Of a DNA stretch of 64,000 bases, positions 17,936-32,159 are shown one piece after another; within the stretch, counting starts at the first letter, position 1, and each line of letters begins with the position of its first letter. The stretch is from Verrucomicrobiia bacterium (GTDB lineage: Bacteria; Verrucomicrobiota; Verrucomicrobiia; Limisphaerales; JAEYXS01), in NCBI GenBank assembly GCA_036405135.1, contig DASWYF010000031.1, forward strand, positions 28,522-92,521. Reading direction: 5' to 3'. The notes beneath the pieces were generated by a model. It was not told the DNA's origin. It saw only the letters and a list, made by a program, of their open reading frames with translations, and did not search any database. The position numbers and the translations under genes are program-made.

Positions 17936-20020
17936 TTAGGCCTCCTTGACTTTCACCTTATATCCTTTGATCTGAGTTCGTTTCAACTTGGCCACGATGC
18001 TGTTCGCATGCTCCGCTGCCACATCCACAAAAAGGTGTTTCTCGCGGATATCCACCGTTCCAATCGCCTTTGCAGACAACCCGGTCTCGCCTTGGATCGC
18101 CTGAACCACATCGGCGGCCGTGACACCCATCTCTTCACCCACGCTCATGTATAGACGCGTCTGGTTATCTGGCGTCTTGCGGCTCGCCTTGGGTGAACGG
18201 AAAGGCATAGGATTCTCGATCAACTCCCGTTTTTCGGGTATACGCATCATCGGCTTCACCTTCGTCGGCGTGCCCGGCGGAATTTCTGATTTTTGGACCG
18301 GCTTTGCTTCTGCCTTGGGTGCGACCGGTTTGATTTCTTTAACCTCGGTTTTGACCGCAGGTGTCACTTTAGCAACCGGAGGAAGTTCTTCCGCTTTAGG
18401 CTCAGGCACCTTGGCATACGCCTCTGCCGCTTCCTTCACCGCTTCAGCGGTCGCTGCGATGGTTGTCGGCTTGGGAGTAATCATCTTCGCTGGCGTCGAA
18501 GGCCGGGCGATAGGTGCTGGTCTTACCGGGCGCTCCATCGGCGCCCGGGCTGGACGCTCATCGTATCGGTCACCATACCCGCCGCGATCCTGACGGTATC
18601 CTCCACGTTCTTCACGGTAACCGCCACGATCCTCGCGATAGCCACCACCACGACGATCATCCCGTCCACCACCGCGATCATAGCCGCCACGCTGTTCCTC
18701 TCGCTCCACTGGCTGCTGCGCGGGTTGTTCATCCTCACCTTGTAAATGATGAATAAGCGCGGAGGCGATGTCGGTAGACGTAAATCCTTCTTCCAGCAAA
18801 CGCTCGATCAAATGATCCTGCTTCTTGTATTCGCCGCTCGTCAAAGTCAGGCGCAGCTTCGTCAGGAACACGCTCGCCTTGGCCTGTTCGACTTCCGTTT
18901 GCGTCGGCACACGACCGCGCTGGATGCGCATCTTCGTGTAACGCTCGATGTGCTGGATCTGAAACAGTTCGCGTCCCGAGATGAACGAGATGGCACGACC
19001 ACTACGACCGGCGCGGCCTGTGCGGCCAATACGGTGCACGTAGTCTTCTACGTCATACGGCAGGTCGTAATTGAACACCACCTGCACGTCGTCCACGTCG
19101 ATGCCGCGTGCGGCCACATCCGTCGCCACGAGAAATTCCAAACCCGATTTGCGGAACTTCTGCATCACGCGATCACGCTGGTTCTGGTTCATGTCACCAT
19201 GCAGGCGGTCGGCAGAATAACCCTGCGCATTCAGGTGATCCACGAGGTCATCCACCATGCGCTTGGTGTTGCAGAAAATGATGCCCAGCTTGAGATCGTG
19301 GATGTCAATCAAGCGCGTGAGCAACTCGATCTTGAAGCGGCGGTCCACCTCGTAATAGGACTGCTCCACCGTCGGCACAGTCATCGCCTTCTGCTCGATT
19401 TTAACGCTCTGCGGATCCTTCGCAAACTTCTTGATCAATTCCTGGATCGGCCGCGGCATCGTAGCGGAGAAGAAAACCGTCTGCCGTTCTGCAGGCAAGG
19501 CTTGCAGGATGAACTCGATGTCTTCGCGGAAACCCATGTCCAGCATCACATCCGCCTCGTCCAGAATGATCATCTTGAGCTTATCGAGGCGCAACGTGCC
19601 ACGGCGCATATGGTCCATCAGACGTCCCGGTGTGCCGATGACGATCTGCGCGCCCTGCTGCAAACCGTAGTACTGACGTTCGTAAGATTGCCCGCCGTAA
19701 ATCGGCAGCGCCTGGATGCCACGCTTGAAAAGCGTCAGTTTATGGACCTCTTCCGAGACCTGCACGGCCAGCTCACGGGTGGGGCACAAGATCAGGATCT
19801 GCACGCCACGCAGTTTGACATCCACCTTCTCCACTGCCGGGATGGCAAAGGCCGCCGTCTTACCGGAACCAGTTTGCGACTGGCCCACGATGTCCTTCCC
19901 CTGCAACAGTACAGGGATGGCCTCGGCCTGAATCGGTGAGGCTTGTTCAAACCCCAGCTTATCGATGGCCTTCAACAGTTCCGGGGACAAACCCAGCTCA
20001 GAAAATAACTTCGGTGTCAT
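17936..20020 (-). CDS. DEAD-box RNA helicase with RGG-like tail and DbpA-type RNA-binding domain
   Basis: 694 residues from the ATG at 20020. All helicase motifs are present: Q motif (GFEQASPIQ), Walker A SQTGSGKT, PTRELA, DEAD (VIILDEAD-like), SAT, ARGIDV and HRIGRTGR. After the core comes an Arg/Gly/Asp/Tyr-rich stretch of repeated RGGYRE and DRGGY units (about 455-515), a Pro/Lys/Ala linker, and a C-terminal domain (about 620-694) like the DbpA RNA-binding fold. The layout is that of DeaD/CsdA, which unwinds structured RNA in ribosome assembly and cold adaptation. The RGG-like region may favour RNA condensates. Regulation is not visible. Confidence 0.93.
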   Translation of the reverse strand: MTPKLFSELGLSPELLKAIDKLGFEQASPIQAEAIPVLLQGKDIVGQSQTGSGKTAAFAIPAVEKVDVKLRGVQILILCPTRELAVQVSEEVHKLTLFKRGIQALPIYGGQSYERQYYGLQQGAQIVIGTPGRLMDHMRRGTLRLDKLKMIILDEADVMLDMGFREDIEFILQALPAERQTVFFSATMPRPIQELIKKFAKDPQSVKIEQKAMTVPTVEQSYYEVDRRFKIELLTRLIDIHDLKLGIIFCNTKRMVDDLVDHLNAQGYSADRLHGDMNQNQRDRVMQKFRKSGLEFLVATDVAARGIDVDDVQVVFNYDLPYDVEDYVHRIGRTGRAGRSGRAISFISGRELFQIQHIERYTKMRIQRGRVPTQTEVEQAKASVFLTKLRLTLTSGEYKKQDHLIERLLEEGFTSTDIASALIHHLQGEDEQPAQQPVEREEQRGGYDRGGGRDDRRGGGYREDRGGYREERGGYRQDRGGYGDRYDERPARAPMERPVRPAPIARPSTPAKMITPKPTTIAATAEAVKEAAEAYAKVPEPKAEELPPVAKVTPAVKTEVKEIKPVAPKAEAKPVQKSEIPPGTPTKVKPMMRIPEKRELIENPMPFRSPKASRKTPDNQTRLYMSVGEEMGVTAADVVQAIQGETGLSAKAIGTVDIREKHLFVDVAAEHANSIVAKLKRTQIKGYKVKVKEA

Positions 20021-20147
20021 GCGATCAAATATCCAACAAGAGAACCACTTTACAGTATGCCGGGATGCATAGGGAGACAAATCTTACGGGGTCAAAAAAC
20101 CCCTATTCAGCATTGCGACACACCCATTCCTCCCTTACATAACCTCT

Positions 20148-21437
20148 ATGCCACTGTTCGACAGCTTGCGCCGTATGCTCTCCCCCGAGGGCAAAAGCGG
20201 CGCTGCGGCTGCCAAGCTCCCCACTTGCCGGGGTGCGCGCACAGTGGATTACCTGTCCAAGACGGGTGAATTTTCCATCGAAGCCCGCTACCTGCTTGAC
20301 CTCATCTTGCTGGATGCGATCGCTGTAAAAGCCAGCGATGTGCATCTGGATCCTGCTGAGGACCATATGCTTGTCCGCTATCGCATCGACGGCATGTTGC
20401 ATGATGTGGTGAAACTGCCGAATCACCTGAAAGGCTCCCTCGCCAATCGTGTGAAGGTGATGGCAGACTTGAAGATTTACGAGAGCCGGGTGCCGCAGGA
20501 AGGCAAGGCCAAGGCCGATCCGGCCATGGGTGGATTCGAGATGCGTGTCTCGCTCTCGCCGATGGTAGCGGGAGAAAAGATTTCCATCCGCCTGTTCCGA
20601 CCGGGTGAACAGCGCTTCAGTGTCCAGGCTTTGGGTTTTGATCCGGATACGTTGCATCAATGGGTAAACCTCATCTCCCAGCCGCATGGTTTGTTGCTGC
20701 TGACCGGGCCCGTGGGTTCAGGCAAGACCACTACTCTTTATTCCACGCTCACGCACTTGGTGAACACTCAAGGCCAGCGTCTGAATATCACCACCGTGGA
20801 GGATCCGGTTGAATCGGTTTTGCCGCGCGTGAACCAGGCCACCGTGAACGTGGCGCAAGGGTTCACCTACCCCATCGCCTTGCGTTCTATTCTGCGACAC
20901 GATCCGCAGGTCATCATGATCGGTGAGATACGGGATGAGGAGACGGCGGGCATCGCTGTGCGCGCCAGCCTTTCAGGTCATTTGGTCTTGAGCACGGTGC
21001 ATAGCGGCACAGCGGCGGGTGCGTTTGCGCGAATGGCAAACTTGCATGTAGACCCGCAACTGCTTGCTAGCGCCACGATAGGCGTGATGAATCTGCGTCT
21101 CGTCCGCCAGAACTGCACACAATGCGCCATCCCCTACGAGCCCGGCCCGATGCATATGGCGCGCTTGGAAGGATTGGACCTGGATCGCGCATTCTTTCGT
21201 AAAGGCACCGGTTGCGCTGCTTGTGGCTTCACCGGCTTCCAAGGGCGCCTGCCCATCACGGAATTGCTGGTGAAGAATCCGGAGATCGAACGCCTCATCG
21301 CCGCGAACGCCCCTAGCCAGCAGATCCATGACCTCGCCGAGCAACACGGCATGTGTTCTTTGGCGGCCAGCGCAGTCTTGCGCACCTTCAATGGTGAAAC
21401 GACTTTGGAAGAGATATCCAATCTCCTCATCGCGTAA
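20148..21437 (+). CDS. GspE/PilB-type secretion or pilus ATPase, orphan
   Basis: 429 residues. Asp box and NTPase motifs are complete: ASDVHLDP, Walker A TGPVGSGKTTT, EDPVE, Walker B IMIGEIRDEETA, and His box GHLVLSTVHSG. A C-terminal tetracysteine motif (NCTQCAIPY, then GCAACGFTGFQGR) binds zinc in this family. The N-terminal domain is short compared with PilB/GspE. No other type II secretion or type IV pilus gene is in this window, so the partner system must be elsewhere. It is divergent from the DEAD-box helicase. Confidence 0.9.
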   Translation: MPLFDSLRRMLSPEGKSGAAAAKLPTCRGARTVDYLSKTGEFSIEARYLLDLILLDAIAVKASDVHLDPAEDHMLVRYRIDGMLHDVVKLPNHLKGSLANRVKVMADLKIYESRVPQEGKAKADPAMGGFEMRVSLSPMVAGEKISIRLFRPGEQRFSVQALGFDPDTLHQWVNLISQPHGLLLLTGPVGSGKTTTLYSTLTHLVNTQGQRLNITTVEDPVESVLPRVNQATVNVAQGFTYPIALRSILRHDPQVIMIGEIRDEETAGIAVRASLSGHLVLSTVHSGTAAGAFARMANLHVDPQLLASATIGVMNLRLVRQNCTQCAIPYEPGPMHMARLEGLDLDRAFFRKGTGCAACGFTGFQGRLPITELLVKNPEIERLIAANAPSQQIHDLAEQHGMCSLAASAVLRTFNGETTLEEISNLLIA

Positions 21438-21521
21438 TTTTACGCGTTTTGGGAATCATCTCTCTTGCGAAATCCTCACGCAAAGGCGTATCGTCCGATA
21501 GCCTTCGGACAAAGCCACGCC

Positions 21522-22238
21522 ATGAAATGCCTCGTAGTAGCCGATCTGCACTACGCCCTAAAACAATGGGATTGGGTGCACCGTGCCGCTGACAGCTTCG
21601 ACCTCGTCATCATCGCCGGAGACCTGCTGGACCTGAGTTCGCTCGTGGAGCGTGAGGCTCAATCCATTGTTGTCCTGAAATACCTCGACCGGATTGTCCG
21701 CAAGAAACCTCTGCTCGTGTGTTCCGGCAATCACGATGGCACCGACCACAATGCAGAGAATGAAGCCATCGCCACGTGGCTTGAGGAAGCGCGTGAGGGC
21801 GGCACGCTGGTGGACGGTGATTCATGGGAGAAAGACGGCTGCCTGTTCACCATCTGTCCTTGGTGGGATGGTGATATCACACGCAAGGAAGTCGGAGAAT
21901 TGCTCGCGCGCGATGCGGCAAAGCCCAAGCAACGCTGGATCTGGATCTATCATGCTCCCCCTGATCATACGAAAGTGAGCTGGACCGGTCGTGATTGGGG
22001 TGGCGATGCGCACCTTGTAGAATGGATCAAACAATATCAGCCAGACATGGTTTTGAGCGGGCACATCCATCAGTCCCCTTTCCGTAACGAAGGCTCGTGG
22101 ATCGATAAGATAAACGGCACGTGGGTTTTCAATACAGGACGTCAGATAGGCCCTGAACCCGCCTTCATCCTTCTGGATCTGGAAAACAGGCAGGCGACTT
22201 GGACATCCCAGGCGGGACAGGAGACGATGGCCTTATAG
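21522..22238 (+). CDS. Calcineurin-like metallophosphoesterase
   Basis: 238 residues from the ATG at 21522. Metal-binding blocks appear in order: VADLHYA (D-x-H), IIAGDLLDL (GD), CSGNHDG (GNHD), WIYHAPP, and SGHIHQSPF (GH-x-H). There is no signal peptide or membrane segment, so it is a cytoplasmic phosphoesterase of unknown substrate. It converges on the cNMP-binding gene with seven bases between stops. Confidence 0.9.
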   Translation: MKCLVVADLHYALKQWDWVHRAADSFDLVIIAGDLLDLSSLVEREAQSIVVLKYLDRIVRKKPLLVCSGNHDGTDHNAENEAIATWLEEAREGGTLVDGDSWEKDGCLFTICPWWDGDITRKEVGELLARDAAKPKQRWIWIYHAPPDHTKVSWTGRDWGGDAHLVEWIKQYQPDMVLSGHIHQSPFRNEGSWIDKINGTWVFNTGRQIGPEPAFILLDLENRQATWTSQAGQETMAL

Positions 22239-22245
22239 GACGGGA

Positions 22246-22707
22246 TTACCCGGACTTTTTCTTCGACTTCCCTTGATGATGCAGCAAGCTTTCCAGCACT
22301 TCATCCACCATGCTCATGTGATCTTTCTGATCTTCGAACTGGTGTTTCAAGTCTACCAGATAGCGCGTGAGATTGTTTAGCCTCCGCGCCAGTGTTTCAG
22401 CGACGATGATCGTTACTTCTGGATGTGCATCCAGAAACTGGCGTGCATTCTCGGCCTCCAAGAACTTGCAATCTGTCAGGCACTTGACGGTGGCCATGTG
22501 CGGCTGATGGAGCAGGATGGACATCTCGCCAAAGATGGACCCAGGTTCAGACACACGGCTTACCTGCACATCGCCTTTGCATATCTCCACCTTACCCTCT
22601 ATGAGGATATAGAGGTGGCCCGTGCTCTGGCCTTCGTGCAAAACCTCATCGCCTGTCTTATAGGATACCTGCGGCAGTGCCTGGCAAGATTCCAGCATAT
22701 GGCTCAT
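22246..22707 (-). CDS. Cyclic-nucleotide-binding domain protein without HTH
   Basis: 153 residues. A CNB domain spans about residues 10-120 with the phosphate-binding cassette region EPGSIFGEMSILLHQPHMATV. The canonical R in RTA is replaced by H-M-A, so cAMP affinity is doubtful. The rest is helical and Lys rich (LVDLKHQFEDQKDHMSMVDEVLESLL), with no DNA-binding domain. It could be a signalling adaptor. A perfect palindrome sits 24 bases upstream of its start. Confidence 0.85.
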   Translation of the reverse strand: MSHMLESCQALPQVSYKTGDEVLHEGQSTGHLYILIEGKVEICKGDVQVSRVSEPGSIFGEMSILLHQPHMATVKCLTDCKFLEAENARQFLDAHPEVTIIVAETLARRLNNLTRYLVDLKHQFEDQKDHMSMVDEVLESLLHHQGKSKKKSG

Positions 22708-22730
22708 AACACCGCCAAGGTGAAGGACCC

Positions 22731-22747
22731 GTTTGACAACGTCAAAC
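22731..22747. promoter_or_regulatory. Perfect palindrome GTTTGAC-AAC-GTCAAAC upstream of the cNMP-binding gene
   Basis: Seven-base arms with a three-base spacer, 24-40 bases upstream of the start codon at 22707 (minus strand). Size and position suit an operator for a dimeric HTH regulator. The regulator is unknown. Confidence 0.45.
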
Positions 22748-22790
22748 GTTGCTTCACCGGGATAGTTAATTGGAGAGCGTCAAAGCAAAA

Positions 22791-22817
22791 CCGCGCATGA
22801 ATTCATTTCATGCGCGG
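22791..22817 (-). terminator. Rho-independent terminator after the outer-membrane protein gene
   Basis: An 11-base perfect stem (CCGCGCATGAA and its complement, loop TTCAT), followed on the minus strand by GGTTTTGCTTTG. It lies 26 bases past the stop of the gene at 22843-23697. Confidence 0.75.
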
Positions 22818-22842
22818 CTGCCTTAAACATCTTTCAGAGCAA

Positions 22843-23697
22843 TCAGAACCGCCACACCAGATCCACCGTCACGCGGTCTTTGAAGATGTCATTGCTCGGC
22901 GCAAAGCCACGCTCGTAAGCGAATCCCAAATCCACGTTCTCGAGAACCCGCGAACGGAAACCCACTCCCCACGCAGCTTGCGTGCGACCACCGGCATTCG
23001 TGCTGCCGAAGTTGATCAGATCGAAGCCCTCGGAATTGAAGGGCAATTGGTTACCTTCGGTGAGCGTAGTCACAGCATTGATGGTGGTGAATGGGATGAA
23101 CCATCTACAGGTGAAGTAATCCGCCATCAGGCTGTAACGCACATTGGCTGTCTCTTTGTCCATGTCGATCGGGATGCGTGCTCCGAGATTACCGGTCAGG
23201 TGGAACTTGTCCCACCCCTTGATGGCCGAGACAAACAGGTTGAACTCACCAGACGCATTCCCTTGGAACACATCTTGATTGCCGGAGGGCAGTTCAAAGG
23301 TCAGGCCTGGTGTGATGACCGTTTGCTGCTCGTCATTCTTATAAACGGCATACTTCACACCGAAGCCGATGTCCGCCCAGCCATTCTGCGCAGGACCGAC
23401 CTCAGGGTTGAACTCGATGAAGCCGTCCTTAGTGGCGATGATGGCCAGCCGGTCATTCACGGCGTAGCGCAATTGCACGGCGTATACACGCACATCCACG
23501 TCAGTCCCGAGGAATGCATTATCTAGACGGTGGTAGGCGAAGATCGGGCGAACCTCACTTTGAATCAAAGGTGATTCAAAGAAAATGGGATTCGTCACCG
23601 GCGCGATCGCCTGTGCGGTCCAGTCCTCTGCGTGCACAGTTGTTCCTAGAATCAAACCTGCTGCAGCAGCCATTAATTTCAGTGATGTTTGTTTCAT
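22843..23697 (-). CDS. Outer-membrane beta-barrel protein, transporter-like
   Basis: 284 residues. A signal peptide (MKQTSLKLMAAAAGLILGTTVHA) is followed by alternating amphipathic strands and a C-terminal VDLVWRF, ending in Phe as outer-membrane barrels do. Features such as DIGFGVKYAVY and PGLTFELPSGN resemble the phenol-degradation MetA-like/transporter barrel family. The cargo is unknown. It is divergent from the NO-response operon and shares a 157-base intergenic region containing the NsrR-like box, although the box is far closer to the globin gene. Confidence 0.78.
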   Translation of the reverse strand: MKQTSLKLMAAAAGLILGTTVHAEDWTAQAIAPVTNPIFFESPLIQSEVRPIFAYHRLDNAFLGTDVDVRVYAVQLRYAVNDRLAIIATKDGFIEFNPEVGPAQNGWADIGFGVKYAVYKNDEQQTVITPGLTFELPSGNQDVFQGNASGEFNLFVSAIKGWDKFHLTGNLGARIPIDMDKETANVRYSLMADYFTCRWFIPFTTINAVTTLTEGNQLPFNSEGFDLINFGSTNAGGRTQAAWGVGFRSRVLENVDLGFAYERGFAPSNDIFKDRVTVDLVWRF

Positions 23698-23819
23698 AAA
23701 TCAACAAACTTCACTTATACTCCTAGAGATCCGTTCTCTACCCTCCGCTTGTCGCTTCCCTGCTTTCTCTTGGGACAAAATAGGATGGCTCTCACGCCAA
23801 AATGGGTCAGCGAAAATGT

Positions 23820-23851
23820 TTGAATAGATGCTTTTAAAATGCATCTATATT
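23820..23851 (+). promoter_or_regulatory. NsrR-type operator inside a probable promoter of the globin operon
   Basis: Arms AGATGCTTTT and AAATGCATCT around a central A (23826-23846) form an inverted repeat with one mismatch. It closely resembles the known NsrR consensus (AAGATGCATTT and its mirror). It fills the space between a -35-like TTGAAT (23820-23825) and -10-like TCTATA/TATATT (23844-23851), so binding would block transcription. The operon's own second gene encodes an NsrR-like protein, which implies autoregulation. Confidence 0.8.
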
Positions 23852-23854
23852 GAT

Positions 23855-24319
23855 ATGAACGTCAGTTTGCTGGAACGCATGGGTGGACGACCGGTTCTCC
23901 TGAACCTGTTACGCCATTTCTATGCCGATGTCCGTCAACACGTACTGATCGGCCCTATCTTCACCGCACATATCACAGATTGGCCGGCGCATCTGGAGAA
24001 GATTGCGGATTTTTGGAGTACCATCGCCGGTGGTCCGCCCGCTTACAGCGGGCCCATGGGGGCCAAACACATGCCTTTAGAGCTAAAGGAAGAACACTTT
24101 CAGGCATGGCTGGGCCTGTGGGAACATAATTGCAAAGTCTGGCTGGCTGCCGATTGCGCAGCGGAAATGATTCAATTTGCCCGGAGCATAGCCCTGCGTC
24201 TGCGCTTGATCAGCGGTGTCACCATCCCCGCAGACAGCCTTGGTGCCAGCCTGACTTTCGGTACGAGGCCGTATGGACAGAAGCCTTCCGTTAGGCTTCA
24301 ATCCGGCCCGACATCATGA
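23855..24319 (+). CDS. Truncated haemoglobin, group III-like
   Basis: 154 residues from the ATG at 23855. SLLERMGGRPVLLNLLRHFYADV gives helices A-B with Tyr at B10 (Y23). GPIF and HLEKIADFWSTIAGG follow, then the proximal His in KHMPL (H72) and EEHFQAWLGLW, as in group III truncated globins. The C-terminus is longer than usual and Pro/Arg rich. The start is uncertain: the ATG lies very close to the -10-like box, so the ATG at 23879 is possible if the transcript begins about 23857. The gene overlaps the regulator gene by four bases (ATGA). Truncated globins bind O2 and NO; in this context NO detoxification is likely. Confidence 0.85.
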   Translation: MNVSLLERMGGRPVLLNLLRHFYADVRQHVLIGPIFTAHITDWPAHLEKIADFWSTIAGGPPAYSGPMGAKHMPLELKEEHFQAWLGLWEHNCKVWLAADCAAEMIQFARSIALRLRLISGVTIPADSLGASLTFGTRPYGQKPSVRLQSGPTS

Positions 24320-24753
24320 ATCTGACCTTATTCTCTGATTACTCGCTTCGCATTCTCATGTATGCAGCTCTCAATGGTGGCAAGCAGTTCTCGGTGGATG
24401 ACGTGTCGAACGCCTACAAGCTCTCGCGCCATCATGTGGCCAAGGCGGTGAACTTCCTTTCGCAGGAAGGTTACCTGGCCGCCAAGCGTGGTCGCGGGGG
24501 TGGGATTCTGCTGGGCAAAGCACCTTCGGAAATACGCATCGGCCAGTTGCTGCGCCGTAGCGAAGCAGGAACTCCGTTCATCGAGTGTTTCGATGTGGCC
24601 ACGAATACATGTCCGCTCATCAAAGGCTGCATGCTGAAGGGGGCTCTGTTCGAAGCGTGGAATGCGTTCTTCGATACGCTGGATAAATACACGCTCGCCG
24701 ATTTCGTAAAACGACCCGAGCGCCTGCAACAGGCGTTGGCGATCACTACATGA
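24316..24753 (+). CDS. nsrR: Rrf2-family Fe-S transcription regulator, NsrR-like
   Basis: 145 residues. The N-terminus MNLTLFSDYSLRILMY has Asp8, the ligand known from Streptomyces NsrR. The winged helix includes KLSRHHVAKAVNFLSQEGYLAAKRGRGGG, typical of Rrf2. Three cysteines C91, C99 and C105 (ECFDVATNTCPLIKGC) match the cluster-binding triad, with seven residues between the first pair rather than four or five. NsrR represses NO-defence genes and is released when NO attacks its Fe-S cluster. It overlaps both neighbours by ATGA. The NsrR-like box upstream fits this regulator. Confidence 0.9.
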   Translation: MNLTLFSDYSLRILMYAALNGGKQFSVDDVSNAYKLSRHHVAKAVNFLSQEGYLAAKRGRGGGILLGKAPSEIRIGQLLRRSEAGTPFIECFDVATNTCPLIKGCMLKGALFEAWNAFFDTLDKYTLADFVKRPERLQQALAITT

Positions 24754-26069
24754 AGTTGCTGTTACATAGTTTCATTCTGTTTTTAAGTTCTGTCATAGGC
24801 ACATACGCCCAAGGCACCGAAGAATACGAACAAGCACCCATCCGCTACTCTGCCACCGCCGCAAAGGACGCCACGCAAAAACTCGAGGCTAAATTCGCTT
24901 CGGGTGAATTAAAATTTTCCTCCACGGATAAAGAGAATGTCCGTCTCATCTTGCGTGAGATGAATGTGCCAGTGGAAAGTCAGGTCATCGTTTTTTCCAA
25001 GACCAGTCTCCAGCGCGGGCTCATCTCCCCCCAGCATCCACGCACGATTTACTTCAGTGACGATTGCTACATCGGTTGGGTGCCGGGTGGCTTGGTAGAG
25101 GTAGCGAGCTTCGATCCTGAACTGGGCCCGGTCTTTTATACTTTCGATCCGCGTCCTCTCGCCAAGCCCGAACTGCCCCACTTCAAACGCGACAATGATT
25201 GCCTGAGCTGTCATGGCGGCTCCTTCGTGCGCGGCATCCCAGGTGTGTTTGTCCGTTCGGTGAATACCACGGAGACCGGCGATCCCCTGCTCCAGTTCGG
25301 TTCCAAGGTGGTGGACCACACCACCCCATTCAAAGACCGCTGGGGCGGTTGGTATGTGACGGGCACGCATGGTGATTCCATACATCAAGGCAATGTTTTC
25401 GCAGTGGATAAGAATCGCGAACTCCAGGTGGACTACCACAAGGGTGCAAACATCACCGGGCTCTCACGTTTTTTCCCGGTGGAGAATCTGCTGACGGATT
25501 CGAGCGACATCGTCGCCTTGCTTGTGCTGGAGCATCAGACCGCGATGCACAATGCGATCACGCGTGCTGCTTACAACTCACGGCGAATGCTTGCGTATCA
25601 ACGAAATCTGCAGACGGACTTGAAAGAGCCTGTGACCGATGAGCCCAGCTACGACAGCGTGAAGCGCGTCTTCGACAGCTCAGCCCGGGATGTGGTGGAT
25701 CATCTGCTCTTCAAGGATGAAGCCATTTTACCCGAAGATGGCGTAAAAGGTTCCAACGCGTTTCAGCAAGTATATGAGCGAGGCGGTGTCCGCACGAAAG
25801 ATGGCCGTTCATTGCGCGACTTGCGGCTGGATCGTTACCTCTTCAAATACCGTTGCAGCCATCTTATCTATTCGAAACAGTTTCTCGCTTTGCCGAAGCA
25901 ACTCAAGCAACGCATCTATGCGCGCTTGGAAAAAGCGCTGGATGAGAATGATCCAGATTCACGGTATGATCATCTCAGCAAGCAGGAACGGATTGGTATC
26001 CGTGAGATTTTGCGGGAGACGCATCCGGATTTAAAAGTTACTTGGCAGAAGCAGACGGCGCCGAAGTAG
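24750..26069 (+). CDS. Exported protein with one c-type haem motif, uncharacterised, NO-operon member
   Basis: 439 residues. A signal peptide (MKLLLHSFILFLSSVIGTYA) is followed by a large domain. A single CLSCH haem-attachment motif sits at residues 151-155, preceded by HFKRDND and followed by GGSFVRGIPGVFVRSV. Further on are RWGGWYVTGTHG and LLVLEHQTAMHNAITRAAYNSRRML, a helix with His that could give a second iron ligand. It is not a standard cytochrome c size. I do not know a function for this family. Its ATG overlaps the nsrR stop (ATGA), so it should be induced by NO. Possible roles are a periplasmic NO-binding or redox protein; this is inference. Confidence 0.82.
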   Translation: MKLLLHSFILFLSSVIGTYAQGTEEYEQAPIRYSATAAKDATQKLEAKFASGELKFSSTDKENVRLILREMNVPVESQVIVFSKTSLQRGLISPQHPRTIYFSDDCYIGWVPGGLVEVASFDPELGPVFYTFDPRPLAKPELPHFKRDNDCLSCHGGSFVRGIPGVFVRSVNTTETGDPLLQFGSKVVDHTTPFKDRWGGWYVTGTHGDSIHQGNVFAVDKNRELQVDYHKGANITGLSRFFPVENLLTDSSDIVALLVLEHQTAMHNAITRAAYNSRRMLAYQRNLQTDLKEPVTDEPSYDSVKRVFDSSARDVVDHLLFKDEAILPEDGVKGSNAFQQVYERGGVRTKDGRSLRDLRLDRYLFKYRCSHLIYSKQFLALPKQLKQRIYARLEKALDENDPDSRYDHLSKQERIGIREILRETHPDLKVTWQKQTAPK

Positions 26070-26072
26070 CAA

Positions 26073-26146
26073 CTTTGGACCTCGGCGGCTCGCCACGATG
26101 CGGTGTCGGGGTTGTTCTCCCCAAGAGAACCAGACGCAGTCCAAAG
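26073..26146. repeat. Inverted CTTTGGAC repeat between convergent genes
   Basis: CTTTGGAC at 26073-26080 and GTCCAAAG at 26139-26146 enclose a GC-rich 58-base segment between two converging stop codons. It may serve as a bidirectional terminator or be part of a dispersed repeat; GTCCAAAG recurs near 38500. Confidence 0.5.
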
Positions 26147-26153
26147 GTATCAG

Positions 26154-26843
26154 CTACTGTTTTGCAAAATACTTCAGCATCTTCTCCAATGCCTTCGAGC
26201 GATGGCTCAGCTTGTTCTTCACTTCTTCGCCCAATTCTGCAAAGGACTTGTCATATCCAACCGGGATGAACATGGGATCATAGCCAAATCCGCCGCCGCC
26301 AGCGGGCTTGGTATCCATGCGGCCTTCACATGCACCTTCGAATACCAGTGTGGCCGTTTCCAATTCATCCGCTGCGCAAGGAGGTGAGGAACATTTCTCC
26401 TCTTTCACCAATGGCGTGAGTGCCAGCGCGCAACGAAAACGCGCACTGCGTATTTCCGTTGGCACACCTTGCATAAGACGCAGCAACTTGGCGTTATTTT
26501 CGCCATCTGGGGAATTGCCCGGCTTGCCGGAATCCAGATTCGCGAATCGCGCGGAGTAGACTCCGGGGGCGCCGTTCAGCGCATCCACTTCCAAGCCGCT
26601 GTCATCTGCGAGCACATAGGCCTCACCCGAAATTTGGGATAATTTCCCGGGCGTCTCCAGAAGCCAGTGCGCCAAGCCCGCTGACTTCAACGTGGCGTTG
26701 CCTCCAAACGTGGTCGCGTTCTCTTCGATCGGCGGCGCGTCAGGAAACTCGACCAGGGAAAGGCAGCGGAAAGAGGGACCGAGGATCTGCTGGATCTCTT
26801 CCGTCTTGTGTTTGTTGCGCGTGGCCAGAATCAAAGTGATCAC
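26154..26843 (-). CDS. rdgB: XTP/dITP diphosphatase (RdgB/HAM1)
   Basis: 229 residues. The start MITLILATRNKHKTEEI gives the conserved T-x-N-x-x-K motif. Then follow TFGGNATLKS, VLADDSGLEVDALNGAPGVYSARFA, GGGGFGYDPMF and the late KNKLSHRSKALEKM, all diagnostic. It hydrolyses non-canonical purine nucleoside triphosphates (ITP, XTP) to keep them out of DNA and RNA. A short Cys-Pro-rich insertion (EEKCSSPPCAADE) sits in the middle. Its start is 51 bases downstream of the Rieske gene stop on the same strand. Confidence 0.96.
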   Translation of the reverse strand: MITLILATRNKHKTEEIQQILGPSFRCLSLVEFPDAPPIEENATTFGGNATLKSAGLAHWLLETPGKLSQISGEAYVLADDSGLEVDALNGAPGVYSARFANLDSGKPGNSPDGENNAKLLRLMQGVPTEIRSARFRCALALTPLVKEEKCSSPPCAADELETATLVFEGACEGRMDTKPAGGGGFGYDPMFIPVGYDKSFAELGEEVKNKLSHRSKALEKMLKYFAKQ

Positions 26844-26894
26844 GCTTTAAGAAAATCCGAAATACGCCGGGAACCAAGTCTAAAGCGCAGTCGC

Positions 26895-27626
26895 TTACAA
26901 CTGTGTCACCTTCACATTCACTAAAAAGAATCCGCTCTGGCCGTTGCGGCTCACATACACAATCTGGCTGGTGCCGCTGGCGGTCACTTCAGTGGTCACG
27001 ATCGTCCCAGAGGGATTTATGGAGAATGGCACCACGTTTTCCGCCCCGGTCAACTGTGCACGAAAACGGATCTCATACTTTATCCCTGGAGTGGATGTAA
27101 AAGTGAGTTCAAGACGATCTGCGCCTGAGGCGGTCACTACTGTCACCCTGTATGCCATATCGGGCAAACTGATCTCCAGCAAACCATCCGACGCTTGATG
27201 AAGTGACTCATACTGCGGCAGAGATCCGCCTATCGCCGGCCCCATGTAAGCAATTCCTTCGTGATTGAAGAGCGAGCCGTGATTTGTGCAACGAAAGTTC
27301 GTGCCATTGGGAACGACCGTGCCGCCGGCATGAGGACATTGGGCACGCATGACGCGATAACCTTCCGTCATCCGGCTGATCAGCACAGGATAGTTTGTAT
27401 CGTAGGCAAGCCCGATGAAACCGCCTACTGCTCCGAGCACGGGGAAATCAGAGGGCTTCACCGTCAGCTTTCCATCGGTAGCCGATGACATGAGAGCCAG
27501 CACCGGTTGCGCCCATGTTTTGGAGCCCAAGCGACAACTTGCGAGACCGGTGAACAAGCCAGCAATGAAATCTCTCCGGTTCGGCAGGCAAGGCTTGGTC
27601 TGGCAAGGCAGCATGCTCAAAAGCAT
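26895..27626 (-). CDS. Exported Rieske [2Fe-2S] protein
   Basis: About 243 residues. The Rieske ligands are complete: CPHAGG and, 16 residues later, CTNHGSLF, giving C-x-H and C-x2-H. The N-terminus has a Tat-like signal (NRRDFIAGLFTGLASC), so it is exported folded. A C-terminal beta domain of about 90 residues (from LEISLPDMAYRV on) follows. Starts are possible at 27656 (GTG), 27626 (ATG with AAGGGG in front) and 27614; I chose 27626. No dioxygenase or cytochrome b partner is nearby, so its electron partner is unknown. Confidence 0.82.
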   Translation of the reverse strand: MLLSMLPCQTKPCLPNRRDFIAGLFTGLASCRLGSKTWAQPVLALMSSATDGKLTVKPSDFPVLGAVGGFIGLAYDTNYPVLISRMTEGYRVMRAQCPHAGGTVVPNGTNFRCTNHGSLFNHEGIAYMGPAIGGSLPQYESLHQASDGLLEISLPDMAYRVTVVTASGADRLELTFTSTPGIKYEIRFRAQLTGAENVVPFSINPSGTIVTTEVTASGTSQIVYVSRNGQSGFFLVNVKVTQL

Positions 27627-27634
27627 GCCTTGCC
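27602..27634. repeat. Hairpin covering the Rieske gene start
   Basis: GGCAAG / CTTGCC outside and GCATGC / GCATGC inside, loop TCAAAA, with a three-base bulge. Two candidate start codons lie in the stem, so the structure could hinder initiation. The surrounding CCTTGC repeats suggest stutter sequence was recruited as the N-terminal leader. Confidence 0.5.
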
Positions 27635-27855
27635 CCTTGGAATTCCAGCAAGGCACCTCCGGTCACATTCGGGTGACAATTGGCTGTCAAACCTTTCCCC
27701 AAAAATTAGCACATACAAAAAACGGGTGCCCCAGTGTCTAGTGACTGACAGGACCAGACGCGAATCATGCGCTCAACCAGGGGGCCATAGGCAAAAATTT
27801 ATGATTGGCCCCCGGCATGGTTTCCTTAATCCTCTGGCACCCGATAGCAGCAATT

Positions 27856-30558
27856 ATGGCAGCAAATAAAAGCCCGCAATCCGATACCGGCCTTAAAACT
27901 TGGCAATGTCTCGCGCTAGCCTTGGCCGGCCTGCTCGTCCTGCTGCTCATCTCTTTCCATGACGGTCTGGGGGAAGGAATGGTGCATTTCAACAATGACG
28001 CCCCATATGGCATGATCAAGGCGCGGGAGGATTCGGCCATTGCTGGACTTACCGGGTATTGGGAAAACCTGAACTGGGTGGGCATTGAGCAGCCCAGCGG
28101 CCAGCCAGAACTGGGCAATGCTTATTACTTCCTCACCGGAACCGAGCTGTTCTGCAAAACGTTCCCGGCTTTTTCCCTCTTTTTTCTGGGGTTCTGTGGC
28201 TGGGTCTTGTTCCGCGCGCTCAAGTTTCATCCCGTGGTATGTTTTGCGGGAGCAGTAGCGGCGGCTTATAATACCAACTCCTTTTCCAATGCTTGCTGGG
28301 GCTTGGGCACCTGGCCGATCGCCCGCGGTATGGTCCTGCTTGCGATCGCTGCCCTGTTCAGCTACCGCGAGAAGCCGCATTGGTCCAAGCTGGTGCTCGC
28401 AGGCGCTGCCGTGGGCTTCAACATCATGGGTGCTTTCGATACGGGGGCGATTTACAGTCTCTATGTGGCGGCCTTTGGCCTGGCTCTGGCCTTCAGCAAG
28501 GCGAGCGAGCCATTGCTCAAGCGCAGCGGCAAAGGCATACTACAAGTCGGGGTGGTGGCCGTTTGCGCGTTCCTGCTTTCTGCCCATACCGTCATGAACC
28601 TTATCGGCACCCAGGTGCAAGGTGTCGTCGGCATGGAGCAGACGGAGCAGGCTAAACAGGAACGCTGGAAGGGCGCCACACTTTGGAGCTTCCCGAAGAT
28701 CGAAACCCTCAGGCTCGCTGTGCCAGGCATGTTCGGTTATCGCATGTCAGAAAGTCAGACAGCCAAGCCTGCTGATTACTGGGGTACAGTCGGAGCGCAA
28801 GACGATGCTCCCTATACCCGCTATTCCGGTTCTGGCGAATATGCTGGCTTGCTGGTATTGCTGCTGGCCGCATGGGCTTTGGGGCAAAGCCTGCGACGCG
28901 ATGGAAAAGAGCTTTCCGGCGATAATGACAAATATGTCATCTGGTTTTGTGCGATCGCCGGCTTCATCGCCCTGCTCCTCTCATACGGGCGCTTTGCACC
29001 GTTTTACCAGATCATCTACAAACTGCCTTTCTTCTCCACCATCCGGAATCCCATCAAATTCACCAACCCTCTGCACATCTCGCTACTGATCCTGTTCGGC
29101 TACGGGCTGAACAATCTGGTGAAATCCTACTTCTTCACCAGCAAAGGAGAAACCCTGTCTTGGGGGGCTGCGTGGGTGGCATTTAAGAAAATGTCTGATC
29201 AACACGCCAAGAAACTCCTGTATGGTGGAATCGTGCTCCTGGGTGTTTGCGGACTGGCCGGGTTGATCTATTCCTCTTCCTCTGCGGAATTGGTCAGCTA
29301 TCTGGAAAAAGCCCGTTTCACCCCGGAATCCGCCAAGACACTGGCTGCCTACAGCGCCAAGGAAGTCTTCATAGCATTGATGTTTTTCGCTGCTTCCCTG
29401 CTGGTGATCTGGGGCGGGATGAGCGGCTGGCTAAAGCCCCGGCTCGCCTTGGGGATACTGGTGGCGCTGCTGGCGGTGGACTTCGTCCGCGCCAATATGC
29501 CCTGGGTGAATTTCTATGACTACCGGTATCGCTACGCCTCCAATCACGTCATTGATTTCCTGAAGTCGCAATCCCCTTATTGGCGGAACGCCACCGAAGT
29601 TTCTCCCTTGAGCCGCAGTTACCTCCTCACGCCAGAAGCCAATCACTTCGGCGGAGTGTTCAGCGCATGGCTGCAGAACCAATATCAGTATTACCAGATA
29701 CAGTCGCTTGACATCATCCAGATGCCCCGCCCGCCGGTGTTGGAACTCAATTACATCATGAATTTCAAACCGACAGATAACACCACCGGCAGCGACCTGT
29801 ACAAGCTCAGCCGCGTCTGGGAGCTGACCAGCACGCGGTATCTGGTCGGCCTCGAAGGTTATCTGCCCATCCTGAACCAGCAGTTCGACCGCGGTCGCAA
29901 CCGTTTCAGCATCAAGGAAAAATTCCAGTTCACCGCCAAGCCTGGTGCTACGGGAAACATCGGCCAATACGATGTCACCACCGCCCCTTCGGACAAAGGC
30001 CCTTTGGCCATCTTCGAGTTCACGGGCGCCCTGCCCCGAGCCCACATCTATACCCAATGGGAAAGCGGCATGAGCAACAGCATCCTTTACACAAACATGG
30101 GTGCCGTGACGACCAATGAAGCCGCCCTGCCGATGATCGCCGCGCCGGATTTTGACCCTCAGATGAAAGTGCTGATCTCAGAAACCATTCCGGCACCTGC
30201 CTCTTCACCCGCGAAAGAAGGTATGACCAATCGCGTCAGCGACGTGAACATCCAATCGCGCAGCGTGAGCATGAAGGTTGAGGTGGCACAAGATTCCGTG
30301 CTGCTCCTCAACGACCGTCACAGTCCCAACTGGCACGTGTATGTGGATGGCGCGGAACGTCCGCTCTTGCGGGCGAATTACCTCATGCGCGCCGTACAGT
30401 TGAAGCCGGGTGACAAGGAAGTGATCTTTAAGTTCGAGCCCACCGCCAAGTATCTCAAGATCACTGTCGCCTCGATGGCAGTTGCCCTAGGCTTGCTCGT
30501 GTGGTGGCCATTGCGCGAAAAAAGACAGGCTGCCTCCCCGGAACCTGCTGCCAAATAG
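27856..30558 (+). CDS. YfhO-like multi-spanning membrane protein
   Basis: About 900 residues from the ATG at 27856; an ATG at 27817 is also possible, and neither has a clear ribosome-binding site. Roughly a dozen membrane helices occupy the first two thirds (for example CLALALAGLLVLLLISF, FSLFFLGFCGWVLF, GKGILQVGVVAVCAFLL). An extracytoplasmic C-terminal part ends in SPNWHVYVDGAERPLLRANYLMRAV and VIFKFEPTAKYLKI plus a last helix. That ending is characteristic of YfhO, a family related to GT-C glycosyltransferases and implicated in lipid-linked sugar transfer. The methyltransferase gene starts on the very next base after its stop. Confidence 0.8.
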   Translation: MAANKSPQSDTGLKTWQCLALALAGLLVLLLISFHDGLGEGMVHFNNDAPYGMIKAREDSAIAGLTGYWENLNWVGIEQPSGQPELGNAYYFLTGTELFCKTFPAFSLFFLGFCGWVLFRALKFHPVVCFAGAVAAAYNTNSFSNACWGLGTWPIARGMVLLAIAALFSYREKPHWSKLVLAGAAVGFNIMGAFDTGAIYSLYVAAFGLALAFSKASEPLLKRSGKGILQVGVVAVCAFLLSAHTVMNLIGTQVQGVVGMEQTEQAKQERWKGATLWSFPKIETLRLAVPGMFGYRMSESQTAKPADYWGTVGAQDDAPYTRYSGSGEYAGLLVLLLAAWALGQSLRRDGKELSGDNDKYVIWFCAIAGFIALLLSYGRFAPFYQIIYKLPFFSTIRNPIKFTNPLHISLLILFGYGLNNLVKSYFFTSKGETLSWGAAWVAFKKMSDQHAKKLLYGGIVLLGVCGLAGLIYSSSSAELVSYLEKARFTPESAKTLAAYSAKEVFIALMFFAASLLVIWGGMSGWLKPRLALGILVALLAVDFVRANMPWVNFYDYRYRYASNHVIDFLKSQSPYWRNATEVSPLSRSYLLTPEANHFGGVFSAWLQNQYQYYQIQSLDIIQMPRPPVLELNYIMNFKPTDNTTGSDLYKLSRVWELTSTRYLVGLEGYLPILNQQFDRGRNRFSIKEKFQFTAKPGATGNIGQYDVTTAPSDKGPLAIFEFTGALPRAHIYTQWESGMSNSILYTNMGAVTTNEAALPMIAAPDFDPQMKVLISETIPAPASSPAKEGMTNRVSDVNIQSRSVSMKVEVAQDSVLLLNDRHSPNWHVYVDGAERPLLRANYLMRAVQLKPGDKEVIFKFEPTAKYLKITVASMAVALGLLVWWPLREKRQAASPEPAAK

Positions 30559-31335
30559 ATGTCAGACTCCTCTTCATCACATCAGGAATCCTACCGGCAG
30601 AACGAAGCCTACGCCGAGTTTCTCTCCGGTTGGGATGCCGGCTTCTACGCCAAGTACGCTGATACCTTGCGGCCTGCCAATGCCGGGGGGCGGGTGCTGG
30701 ATGTAGGCTGTGGAGTCGGCCAGGTGGTGAACCGCTTGCAAACCGCCGGTTATGAGGCTCACGGTGTGGATGTCTCGGAGCCGAACATCCAACGCGCGGT
30801 GAAATTCAGTCCTCGCTGCCAGCTCTATGACGGGCGCAAGCTGCCCTTCCCTGATGGCTTCTTCGATTCTGCTGGTGCATTGAATGTCTTGGAGCATGTG
30901 GAAGAGCCCGAACTGTTCATCCCTGAGCTTGTGCGCATAGTGAAACGCGGCGGCAAGATCGTGCTCTCCAGTCCGAACTTCTTTCGCGTGCTCGGTTTCA
31001 AAGATTACCATCCCCGAATGCGCGGCATCGGGCAGAAGTGGAGCAACTTCCAACGCTTACAGGAAAAGCGCCGTCAGATCCGCGAGACTCCCGAGCAAGT
31101 GCGCTTTGACCGCATGGAACCCATCAAACGGGAAGCTTTTCAACCGGACGATGATGCCATCATCGCCACGAATCCGCTGGAGATGAGCTTCTTTCTGGAA
31201 CGCGCCGGTTGTCGCGTGGAGAGTGTTTCCTGCACGGATCGTTATGTGGCCGCGCCAGTCGAGTTCGGGTTGAATCTCGGTCCTTGGCGCTGGGGCATGT
31301 TCAATGCCTTCCTCATCGCCACCAAGATCAAGTGA
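30559..31335 (+). CDS. Class I SAM-dependent methyltransferase
   Basis: 258 residues. The SAM-binding motif I is VLDVGCGVGQV, with acidic loop VDVSEPN, then FDSAGALNVLEHVEEPELFI and VKRGGKIVLSSPN, the Methyltransf_11 layout. The start directly follows the YfhO-like stop, so the two are coupled; the pair may modify a glycan or lipid. The true substrate is not readable from the sequence. No signal peptide. Confidence 0.9.
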   Translation: MSDSSSSHQESYRQNEAYAEFLSGWDAGFYAKYADTLRPANAGGRVLDVGCGVGQVVNRLQTAGYEAHGVDVSEPNIQRAVKFSPRCQLYDGRKLPFPDGFFDSAGALNVLEHVEEPELFIPELVRIVKRGGKIVLSSPNFFRVLGFKDYHPRMRGIGQKWSNFQRLQEKRRQIRETPEQVRFDRMEPIKREAFQPDDDAIIATNPLEMSFFLERAGCRVESVSCTDRYVAAPVEFGLNLGPWRWGMFNAFLIATKIK

Positions 31336-31336
31336 T

Positions 31337-32098
31337 TCACAGCCCCGATGGGTGATCGATGAAACTCCACGGCACTCCGCATTTCTTCGAGAGATGCGCT
31401 GAGAGCGCTTTCACTCCAAATGTTTCAGTGGCGTAGTGCCCGCCGTAAATCACATTCACTCCCAATTCTTCCGCCAGCGGAAAAGTCCAGTGTGGCCCTT
31501 CTCCCGTGATGAACGTATCCACACCTTCAGCCGCCGCCTTCTTCACCTCGGCTCCGGCTCCGCCCGTCACCACGCCGATGTTCCGGCAGATCTCCGGTCC
31601 GCACGCGAGCACAGTCGTCTTGCCACCGACCGCCTTTTGCACCCGCGTATCCAATTCCTCCCGGCTGATCTTCGTCGCTGACTTCAGCCCCAAGTATCGC
31701 TTCTTCTCAAAGAAAAACGGCATCATTTTCTTCAAACCAAGCGCCGCGCAAAGTTGTGCGTTGTTCCCCAGCTTCGCATGCAGGTCCAACGGCAGGTGCG
31801 AACTGTAAACCGCTACGTTTCCCTCCAGTAACAGGCGCATGAGCTCATAGCGCTTCCCCGTCCACGGATGCGATGGCGACCAGAATAATCCGTGATGCAC
31901 GATGAGCAGATCAGCTTTCGCTGCGATCGCCTTGCGGACGGTCGCAATGCTGCCATCCACGGCAGCGGCGATCTTCGTAACCTTGCCGGTGTTTTCCACC
32001 TGCAAGCCGTTCACCGCCCCGGGGTAATCTTCCACGTTTGCCGTATCCAGCAACTCGTCACAATACCCCGTCAGCTTTCGCAGTTCCACACTTTGCAT
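31337..32098 (-). CDS. Nif3-like dinuclear metal centre protein
   Basis: About 253 residues from the ATG at 32098, with GGAGA just upstream; an ATG at 32110 is the alternative. Metal-binding motifs include LLIVHHGLFW (HH), YSSHLPLDLH, and late TGEGPHWTF and VIYGGHYATETFGV. The arrangement matches the NIF3/YqfO/GTP cyclohydrolase I type 2 family, a hexameric toroid of uncertain activity. It converges with the methyltransferase gene (one base between stops) and lies downstream of the Kelch gene on the same strand. Confidence 0.93.
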   Translation of the reverse strand: MQSVELRKLTGYCDELLDTANVEDYPGAVNGLQVENTGKVTKIAAAVDGSIATVRKAIAAKADLLIVHHGLFWSPSHPWTGKRYELMRLLLEGNVAVYSSHLPLDLHAKLGNNAQLCAALGLKKMMPFFFEKKRYLGLKSATKISREELDTRVQKAVGGKTTVLACGPEICRNIGVVTGGAGAEVKKAAAEGVDTFITGEGPHWTFPLAEELGVNVIYGGHYATETFGVKALSAHLSKKCGVPWSFIDHPSGL

Positions 32099-32159
32099 GG
32101 TGTTCTCCATGCCATGCCTTGCATCTCAGGCAAAGCTATTTCACCCTCTAAACGAAGGT

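Follow-up and report, generated by a model that had tools for sequence, protein, structure and literature searches.

A 64,000-nucleotide stretch of a genome of a Verrucomicrobiia bacterium (assembly GCA_036405135.1, contig DASWYF010000031.1, positions 28,522 to 92,521; here called the window) carries a gene for a truncated globin, a gene for an Rrf2 regulator and a gene for a 439-residue protein with a single CxxCH motif, all behind an NsrR-type palindrome. Since a minority of the genes of this CxxCH family lie near globin or repressor-type genes or behind such boxes in three phyla, the protein is likely a new kind of nitric oxide (NO) defence protein, as judged from sequence. On balance, we favour the reading that the three genes form an NsrR-controlled operon, in which the third product would be an exported single-haem-c protein that removes NO outside the inner membrane while the globin does so inside, both being induced when the cluster of the repressor is damaged. 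NsrR-globin operons are already known. The third component belongs to an uncharacterised family for which we found no published description in the open-access literature of PubMed Central (preprints and most subscription papers lie outside it). The initial annotation had proposed the third gene as a possible new partner in NO defence; enriched neighbourhoods, recurrence of the triad in two other Verrucomicrobia and a boxed, unlinked copy in Hydrogenedentota support this proposal.

The operon and its operator

The source genome comprises 5.8 Mb in 52 contigs. The three genes are consecutive and, as initially described, joined by ATGA overlaps (24316-24319 and 24750-24753). Upstream of them lies the palindrome AGATGCTTTTAAAATGCATCT (Table 1). 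Our first operator scan used an NsrR-type pattern that is longer than the published consensus, and gave a single match in the window at up to three mismatches, versus 0.06 expected from shuffles. Literature comparisons here and below draw on PMC11928373, PMC6427953, PMC1274295 and PMC10866078. At 23827-23845 the site departs at a single base from gATGyAT-N5-ATrCATc, the published consensus for NsrR (PMC1274295), and the palindrome initially reported before the operon thus holds up. When the longer pattern was run on the source genome, the operon palindrome was the best site and six other places at three mismatches all fell within open reading frames, so that the regulator seems to have no clear target there besides its own operon.

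The first ATG of the globin frame (23828) was rejected as the start since it lies inside the palindrome. The ATG at 23855 is most likely the start: it is close to the starts of the relatives and leaves the box just upstream, 9-29 bases away. A scan for sigma-70-type promoters revealed nothing above chance (2 matches versus 1.6 expected).

The regulator is probably of the NsrR type

Gene 2 encodes an Rrf2 protein (PF02082, 97 bits, cut-off 30) whose closest PDB match is the HTH-type repressor NsrR 5n07 (E 4.5e-18). In the alignment to 5n07, the residues D8, C91, C99 and C105 named in the initial annotation are all present. Asp8 and three cysteines are the Fe-S cluster residues of NsrR; RirA has the same C91-C99-C105 spacing but is not known to have D8. 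NCBIfam profiles do not separate the two types, since the regulator scored 109.6 with the NsrR model (cut-off 182) and 114.2 with the RirA model (cut-off 193), both below cut-off. Of the initial label 'NsrR-like', the cluster residues and the box fit, while the profiles leave the choice between NsrR and RirA undecided.

The regulator could alternatively be a RirA-like iron regulator and the operon serve haem or iron supply instead of NO defence. The higher RirA scores of the window regulator and of its counterpart in locus L001 (125.9 versus 108.2) and the presumed RirA spacing of the cysteines agree with this, but D8 is as in NsrR, the box fits the published NsrR consensus, the partner in one relative is a flavohaemoglobin above its curated cut-off, and the NsrR model scores above the RirA model for the regulators of L016, L062, L080, L157 and L282. 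We consider a RirA-like role very unlikely. D8 and the box speak for an NsrR-type regulator.

The globin

Gene 1 encodes a bacterial globin (Bac_globin, PF01152, 33.6 bits, cut-off 21). Its closest PDB match, across 100 residues, is the group III truncated haemoglobin 2ig3 of Campylobacter (E 4.9e-9), and the next four PDB rows are other globins. Two things differ from the Campylobacter case: the globin is partnered here with a new CxxCH family, and the regulator of the Campylobacter truncated haemoglobin is NssR. The source genome has a second window-type globin (G000:C48:191105-191455, L274; 46% identical) with neither Rrf2 gene nor box in its 1.5 kb flanks. A shared partnership with the window globin as a rule was rejected, since window-type globins occur without a CxxCH gene in genomes G075, G088, G091, G099, G169, G172, G181 and G271.

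Genes of the CxxCH family recur beside NO-type genes

We collected 110 loci with a CxxCH gene, most of them 7-15 kb long. They come from Verrucomicrobiota, Planctomycetota and Acidobacteriota and from a single metagenome-assembled genome (MAG) of Hydrogenedentota, and were probed in six frames with globin, Rrf2 and flavohaemoglobin sequences. Since these probes were drawn from the loci themselves, the contrast between near and far, not the raw count, is the evidence. The duplicate L177 was dropped from this test, from the tree and from the box test, leaving 109 loci, and the window was excluded from the near/far count. Within 1.5 kb of the CxxCH gene (317,020 bases) we found 15 matches, versus 2 farther away (989,963 bases; p 4.8e-8 in a binomial test that treats matches as independent, L172 and L173 being paralogues of one genome). 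For Rrf2 alone the numbers were 11 near and 2 far (p 8e-6), and one of the two far matches is L080's own Rrf2. Co-occurrence with nsrR or globin genes, which the initial annotation had put forward as the check on its idea, thus greatly exceeds what the surrounding DNA would predict, although few of the loci show it: 13 of 109 are linked to Rrf2, globin or flavohaemoglobin within 1.5 kb and 96 are unlinked. That is, linkage to NO-type genes is a minority habit of the CxxCH family. Clustering of open frames gave Rrf2 (8 near loci versus 2 far ones) and sulfatases (8 versus 7) as the most widespread near genes; since sulfatases reflect mere abundance, only Rrf2 is enriched of the two. Smaller unnamed clusters comprised 3-5 loci near and 0 far, several of them from loci close on the tree.

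The globin-Rrf2-CxxCH triad recurs in two other Verrucomicrobia, L001 (third protein 82% identical) and L016 (a Pedosphaera MAG, 55%). In L080 a flavohaemoglobin (545.9 bits with the NCBIfam model for NO-inducible flavohemoprotein, curated cut-off 432) stands directly before the CxxCH gene, and their mechanical frames share 4 bases. The Rrf2 gene of this locus is divergent and encodes D8 and the three cysteines. NsrR-type Rrf2 genes lie upstream of the CxxCH gene in L062 and L157; in L157 the regulator, a Tll0287-like protein and the CxxCH gene form a single run. A protoglobin gene sits between CxxCH gene and Rrf2 gene in L143, and a globin divergent from the CxxCH gene in L086 (20.4 bits versus the Pfam cut-off of 21; it is aligned by the window globin). 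In seven loci (L008, L009, L013, L143, L158, L172 and L173) the Rrf2 is of another type with two motif cysteines; the five scored with the NsrR model (all except L013 and L173) reached 35-64 bits.

In a tree of 98 sequences, the label 'linked' (16 rows, among them L005, whose sole neighbour of interest is Tll0287-like) requires 12 changes, or at least 11 judging by well-supported branches, versus 15.1 for shuffled labels, with 6 of 500 shuffles as low. The link has therefore been made or lost many times, and its repetition with unrelated globin families argues for function. Chance could also account for the neighbourhood, the gene of an otherwise ordinary exported protein lying behind the regulator by coincidence. 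Most family members are indeed unlinked, but the enrichment of neighbours and of boxes, the repeated linkage to unrelated globin families and the box of an unlinked Hydrogenedentota copy make this the explanation to which we give least credence.

Some further arrangements were observed. Tll0287-like proteins adjoin the CxxCH gene in L157 (8005-8532), L172 (8465-9142), L005 (7589-8173) and L173 (1-285); the one in L172 was recognized by Pfam, those in L005 and L173 by similarity to it. In L172 and L173 a YwiC-like membrane protein is encoded on the opposite side of the CxxCH gene. A tandem pair of CxxCH genes adjoins an Rrf2 gene in a Planctomycetaceae MAG (L013, 4898-7251, the same as L177). 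In genomes G199 and G277, which have their CxxCH genes at other places, a globin gene is divergent from an Rrf2 gene (L264, 994-1878, and L263, 1020-1851); among palindromes common to this pair and the unlinked CxxCH copies of the two genomes, none lies before the CxxCH gene.

NsrR-type boxes elsewhere in the family

The box test relied on the published consensus with a limit of two mismatches, not on a core pattern devised after the sites had been seen. Promoter regions were set to 300 bases upstream and 60 downstream and the window contributed positions 18000-33000, both by our choice; L293 was also dropped in the handling of duplicates. The 48,281 bases of promoter regions that belong to the CxxCH gene or to partners linked with it held 8 boxes in 6 loci, versus 8 in the remaining 1,447,642 bases (p 1.2e-8). 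The window and L001 contribute two box matches each, and the L300 box overlaps a start codon. Before the globin of L016 the consensus is matched perfectly; L001 and the window have one mismatch each.

No Rrf2 gene lies near the Hydrogenedentota copy L006, yet a box at two mismatches precedes its CxxCH gene (0 of 200 shuffles). Its genome has 6 box-like places at two mismatches; when up to three are allowed there are 14, versus 2 for a reversed control pattern. Two of the six are clearly intergenic, one before the CxxCH gene and the other (L282) between an NsrR-type regulator and a truncated globin. The L282 regulator shows D8 and the three-cysteine pattern (109.5 with the NsrR model, cut-off 182), and the globin is followed by a ferredoxin reductase; a globin-reductase pair is a predicted NsrR target in Legionella (PMC1274295). 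Of the other four places, L279, L280 and L284 lie inside open frames and L283, at a contig end, has the sequence of L284. Two-mismatch boxes also occur with the Hydrogenedentota copies L296 and L300, whereas the remaining copies of that phylum have none at that level.

The third protein belongs to a large unnamed family

In agreement with the initial description, the 439-residue protein has one CLSCH, at residues 151-155, and a signal-peptide-like start; it contains four cysteines in all. Its N-terminal hydrophobic stretch resembles a Sec signal peptide and forms a helix (residues 2-19) in the structure model, and the protein is predicted to be exported. Searches returned no Pfam family at E<=1 and no NCBIfam, PHROGs or PDB sequence match, and for 75 aligned members there was no credible Pfam match among the 25 of 29 weakly matching families listed. 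At least 6,212 homologues were found at E<=0.001 among 7,998 candidates scored. Family matches occurred in 24 of 288 genomes of its own phylum, 27 of 246 in the phylum of Stieleria, 12 of 199 in that of Granulicella and, with a Hydrogenedentota relative as query, 13 of 68 in the Hydrogenedentota phylum. Spread of the gene by plasmids was rejected (0 matches in 72,556 plasmid records). Two paralogues in the source genome (L055, G000:C47:31451-32629, and L056, G000:C2:371540-372778; 42% and 40% identical) belong to other tree clades, with no globin, Rrf2 or flavohaemoglobin neighbours in 15 kb.

The CxxCH motif is kept in 54 of 54 aligned members (the partial or short L012, L014 and L015 were excluded from this and the 75-sequence alignment). 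Invariant in 75 sequences are Q78, S86, I92, P97, R98, G109, E117, C151, C154, H155, G177, R197, G205, N215, S252, D253 and Q263; H212, E261, H262 and C369 are nearly so. Neither methionine nor lysine is found among these columns. The protein does not fit class I cytochromes c, as its CxxCH lies at 151 and no methionine is invariant or nearly invariant. A pattern of invariant residues without methionine is more what one would expect of a haem enzyme or a gas-binding protein than of a carrier.

This bears on the idea that the third protein carries electrons in the periplasm or serves another oxidoreductase as redox partner, in which case NO stress or low oxygen would induce it but it would not itself bind NO. 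A single CxxCH with an exported-type start would be in keeping with it, as would a family bigger than its NO link, several copies of which adjoin other Rrf2 types. However, no invariant methionine could serve as sixth ligand, cytochrome c is matched by a single member (E 0.24) within the 25 Pfam families listed, and globins, a flavohaemoglobin and Tll0287-like proteins are among the partners. We regard a carrier role as rather unlikely.

A predicted cytochrome c'-beta-like haem domain

The AlphaFold model of the third protein (pLDDT 95.2) predicts an N-terminal domain of helices and five strands with the CxxCH near the domain end. Its best structural matches point to a cytochrome c'-beta/P460-like fold, a haem c fold (McCP, TtCP) whose features it would share. 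The structure-matched protein binds NO and has His123 as ligand, and McCP is known to bind NO (PMC11928373, PMC6427953). Differences are plain as well: there is little sequence relation beyond the CxxCH, the protein has an extra helical half within its 439 residues, and E117 and R98 are invariant while no lysine is conserved. Foldseek searches, whether with the full model or the domain alone, returned nothing useful. PDB sequence searches with family and domain profiles yielded chance rows around the CxxCH, together with rows for Elongator, NrdH and, at E 0.056, a DUF4867 protein. With hhalign, 18 P460 sequences gave a weak profile alignment around the CxxCH only; they came from 31 loci, 13 being dropped, 12 of these since only the plus strand was read. 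The P460 profile PF16694 did not match the window protein at E<=1 and is absent among the 25 of 29 families listed for the 75 members. Elsewhere in the source genome (G000:C2:114116-114355, L219) there is a weak Pfam cytochrome P460 match, the sole one in 115 genomes of the phylum.

The invariant E117 precedes the haem histidine by 38 residues, a distance similar to that of the distal carboxylate in P460 (42 in McP460), which is an equivalence by spacing only. Together with the predicted fold, this spacing would suit a P460-type enzyme that converts hydroxylamine or nitrite and is induced because these compounds accompany NO. Against such an enzyme stand the lack of an invariant or nearly invariant lysine for the haem cross-link and of any Pfam P460 match, and residue equivalence is by spacing only; we find it improbable. 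For a protein that acts on NO itself, the position of E117 makes turnover, to nitrate or N2O, seem more likely than mere sequestration.

Table 1. Features of the operon, in window coordinates
Feature	Position	Strand	Basis
NsrR-type operator palindrome AGATGCTTTTAAAATGCATCT	23826..23846	.	consensus and pattern match
Truncated haemoglobin, group-III-like	23855..24319	+	PF01152; PDB 2ig3; start at 23855 most likely
NsrR-type Rrf2 repressor (D8, C91, C99, C105)	24316..24753	+	PF02082; PDB 5n07; ATGA overlap with globin gene
439-aa predicted exported single-haem-c protein, unnamed family	24750..26069	+	homologues, CxxCH, AlphaFold; ATGA overlap with regulator gene
Predicted haem-bearing N-terminal domain, residues 26-182, predicted cytochrome c'-beta-like fold	24825..25295	+	CLSCH at 25200-25214

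Next to the operon and divergent from it, on the minus strand at 22843-23697, lies a gene for a 284-residue predicted outer-membrane-like protein, which is kept in L001. A second weak box-like site at 23684 (two mismatches to the published consensus) overlaps the start of this gene.

Discussion

From what was observed, namely gene order with its overlaps, the box, the recurring neighbourhoods and the invariant CxxCH, we infer the following course of events. The three genes would be read as a single transcript that is repressed at the box. NO entering the cell would react with the iron-sulphur cluster of the repressor, which would then leave the box, so that globin and haem protein are made. 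After export and haem attachment, the haem protein would handle NO outside and the globin inside, and the position of the regulator within its own operon would make the response self-limiting. The cytochrome c'-beta-like domain (residues about 26-182) may hold a five-coordinate haem c that captures NO as ligand, and the C-terminal helical half, with the invariant D253 and Q263 and the nearly invariant E261 and H262, may help to form the pocket or to pass electrons. Several observations weigh against NO defence as the task of this family. Most of its members are unlinked, the two other copies of the source genome (on C47 and C2) lack NO-type neighbours, close relatives of the globin stand alone elsewhere in the phylum, and 7 of 12 linked regulators in other loci are not of the NsrR type. 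The role of the family may thus be wider, in haem or redox stress, with NO defence as one use.

Compared with known NsrR regulons (NsrR with hmp, nnrS or hcp, and the Legionella pair of glbN and ferredoxin reductase), the operon shares an Rrf2 regulator with Asp8 and three cysteines, the box and a globin target, whereas none of the targets named in the excerpt of PMC1274295 corresponds to the third gene. Furthermore, the regulator lies here inside the operon, and the only convincing box in the genome is its own. The flavohaemoglobin Hmp replaces the globin in L080, beside an NsrR-type Rrf2 and the CxxCH gene. Hmp is a two-domain globin with its own reductase and is cytoplasmic, whereas the CxxCH protein is predicted to be exported. 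Going further, we tentatively entertain the possibility that the family is a new class of periplasmic NO enzyme, in which a c'-beta-like haem domain, a helical cap and a catalytic glutamate would convert NO before it enters the cell, and which Verrucomicrobiota, Planctomycetota and Hydrogenedentota would pair with whichever globin they own.

Bacteria remove NO for the most part in the cytoplasm (Hmp, truncated globins) or at the membrane (NOR). As to soluble candidates in the periplasm, among them the cytochromes c', their role is still not settled according to PMC11928373. An unnamed family of more than 6,200 relatives whose genes are repeatedly tied to those of NO-sensing and gas-binding proteins offers a candidate that can be tested, in phyla about whose NO biology little is known.
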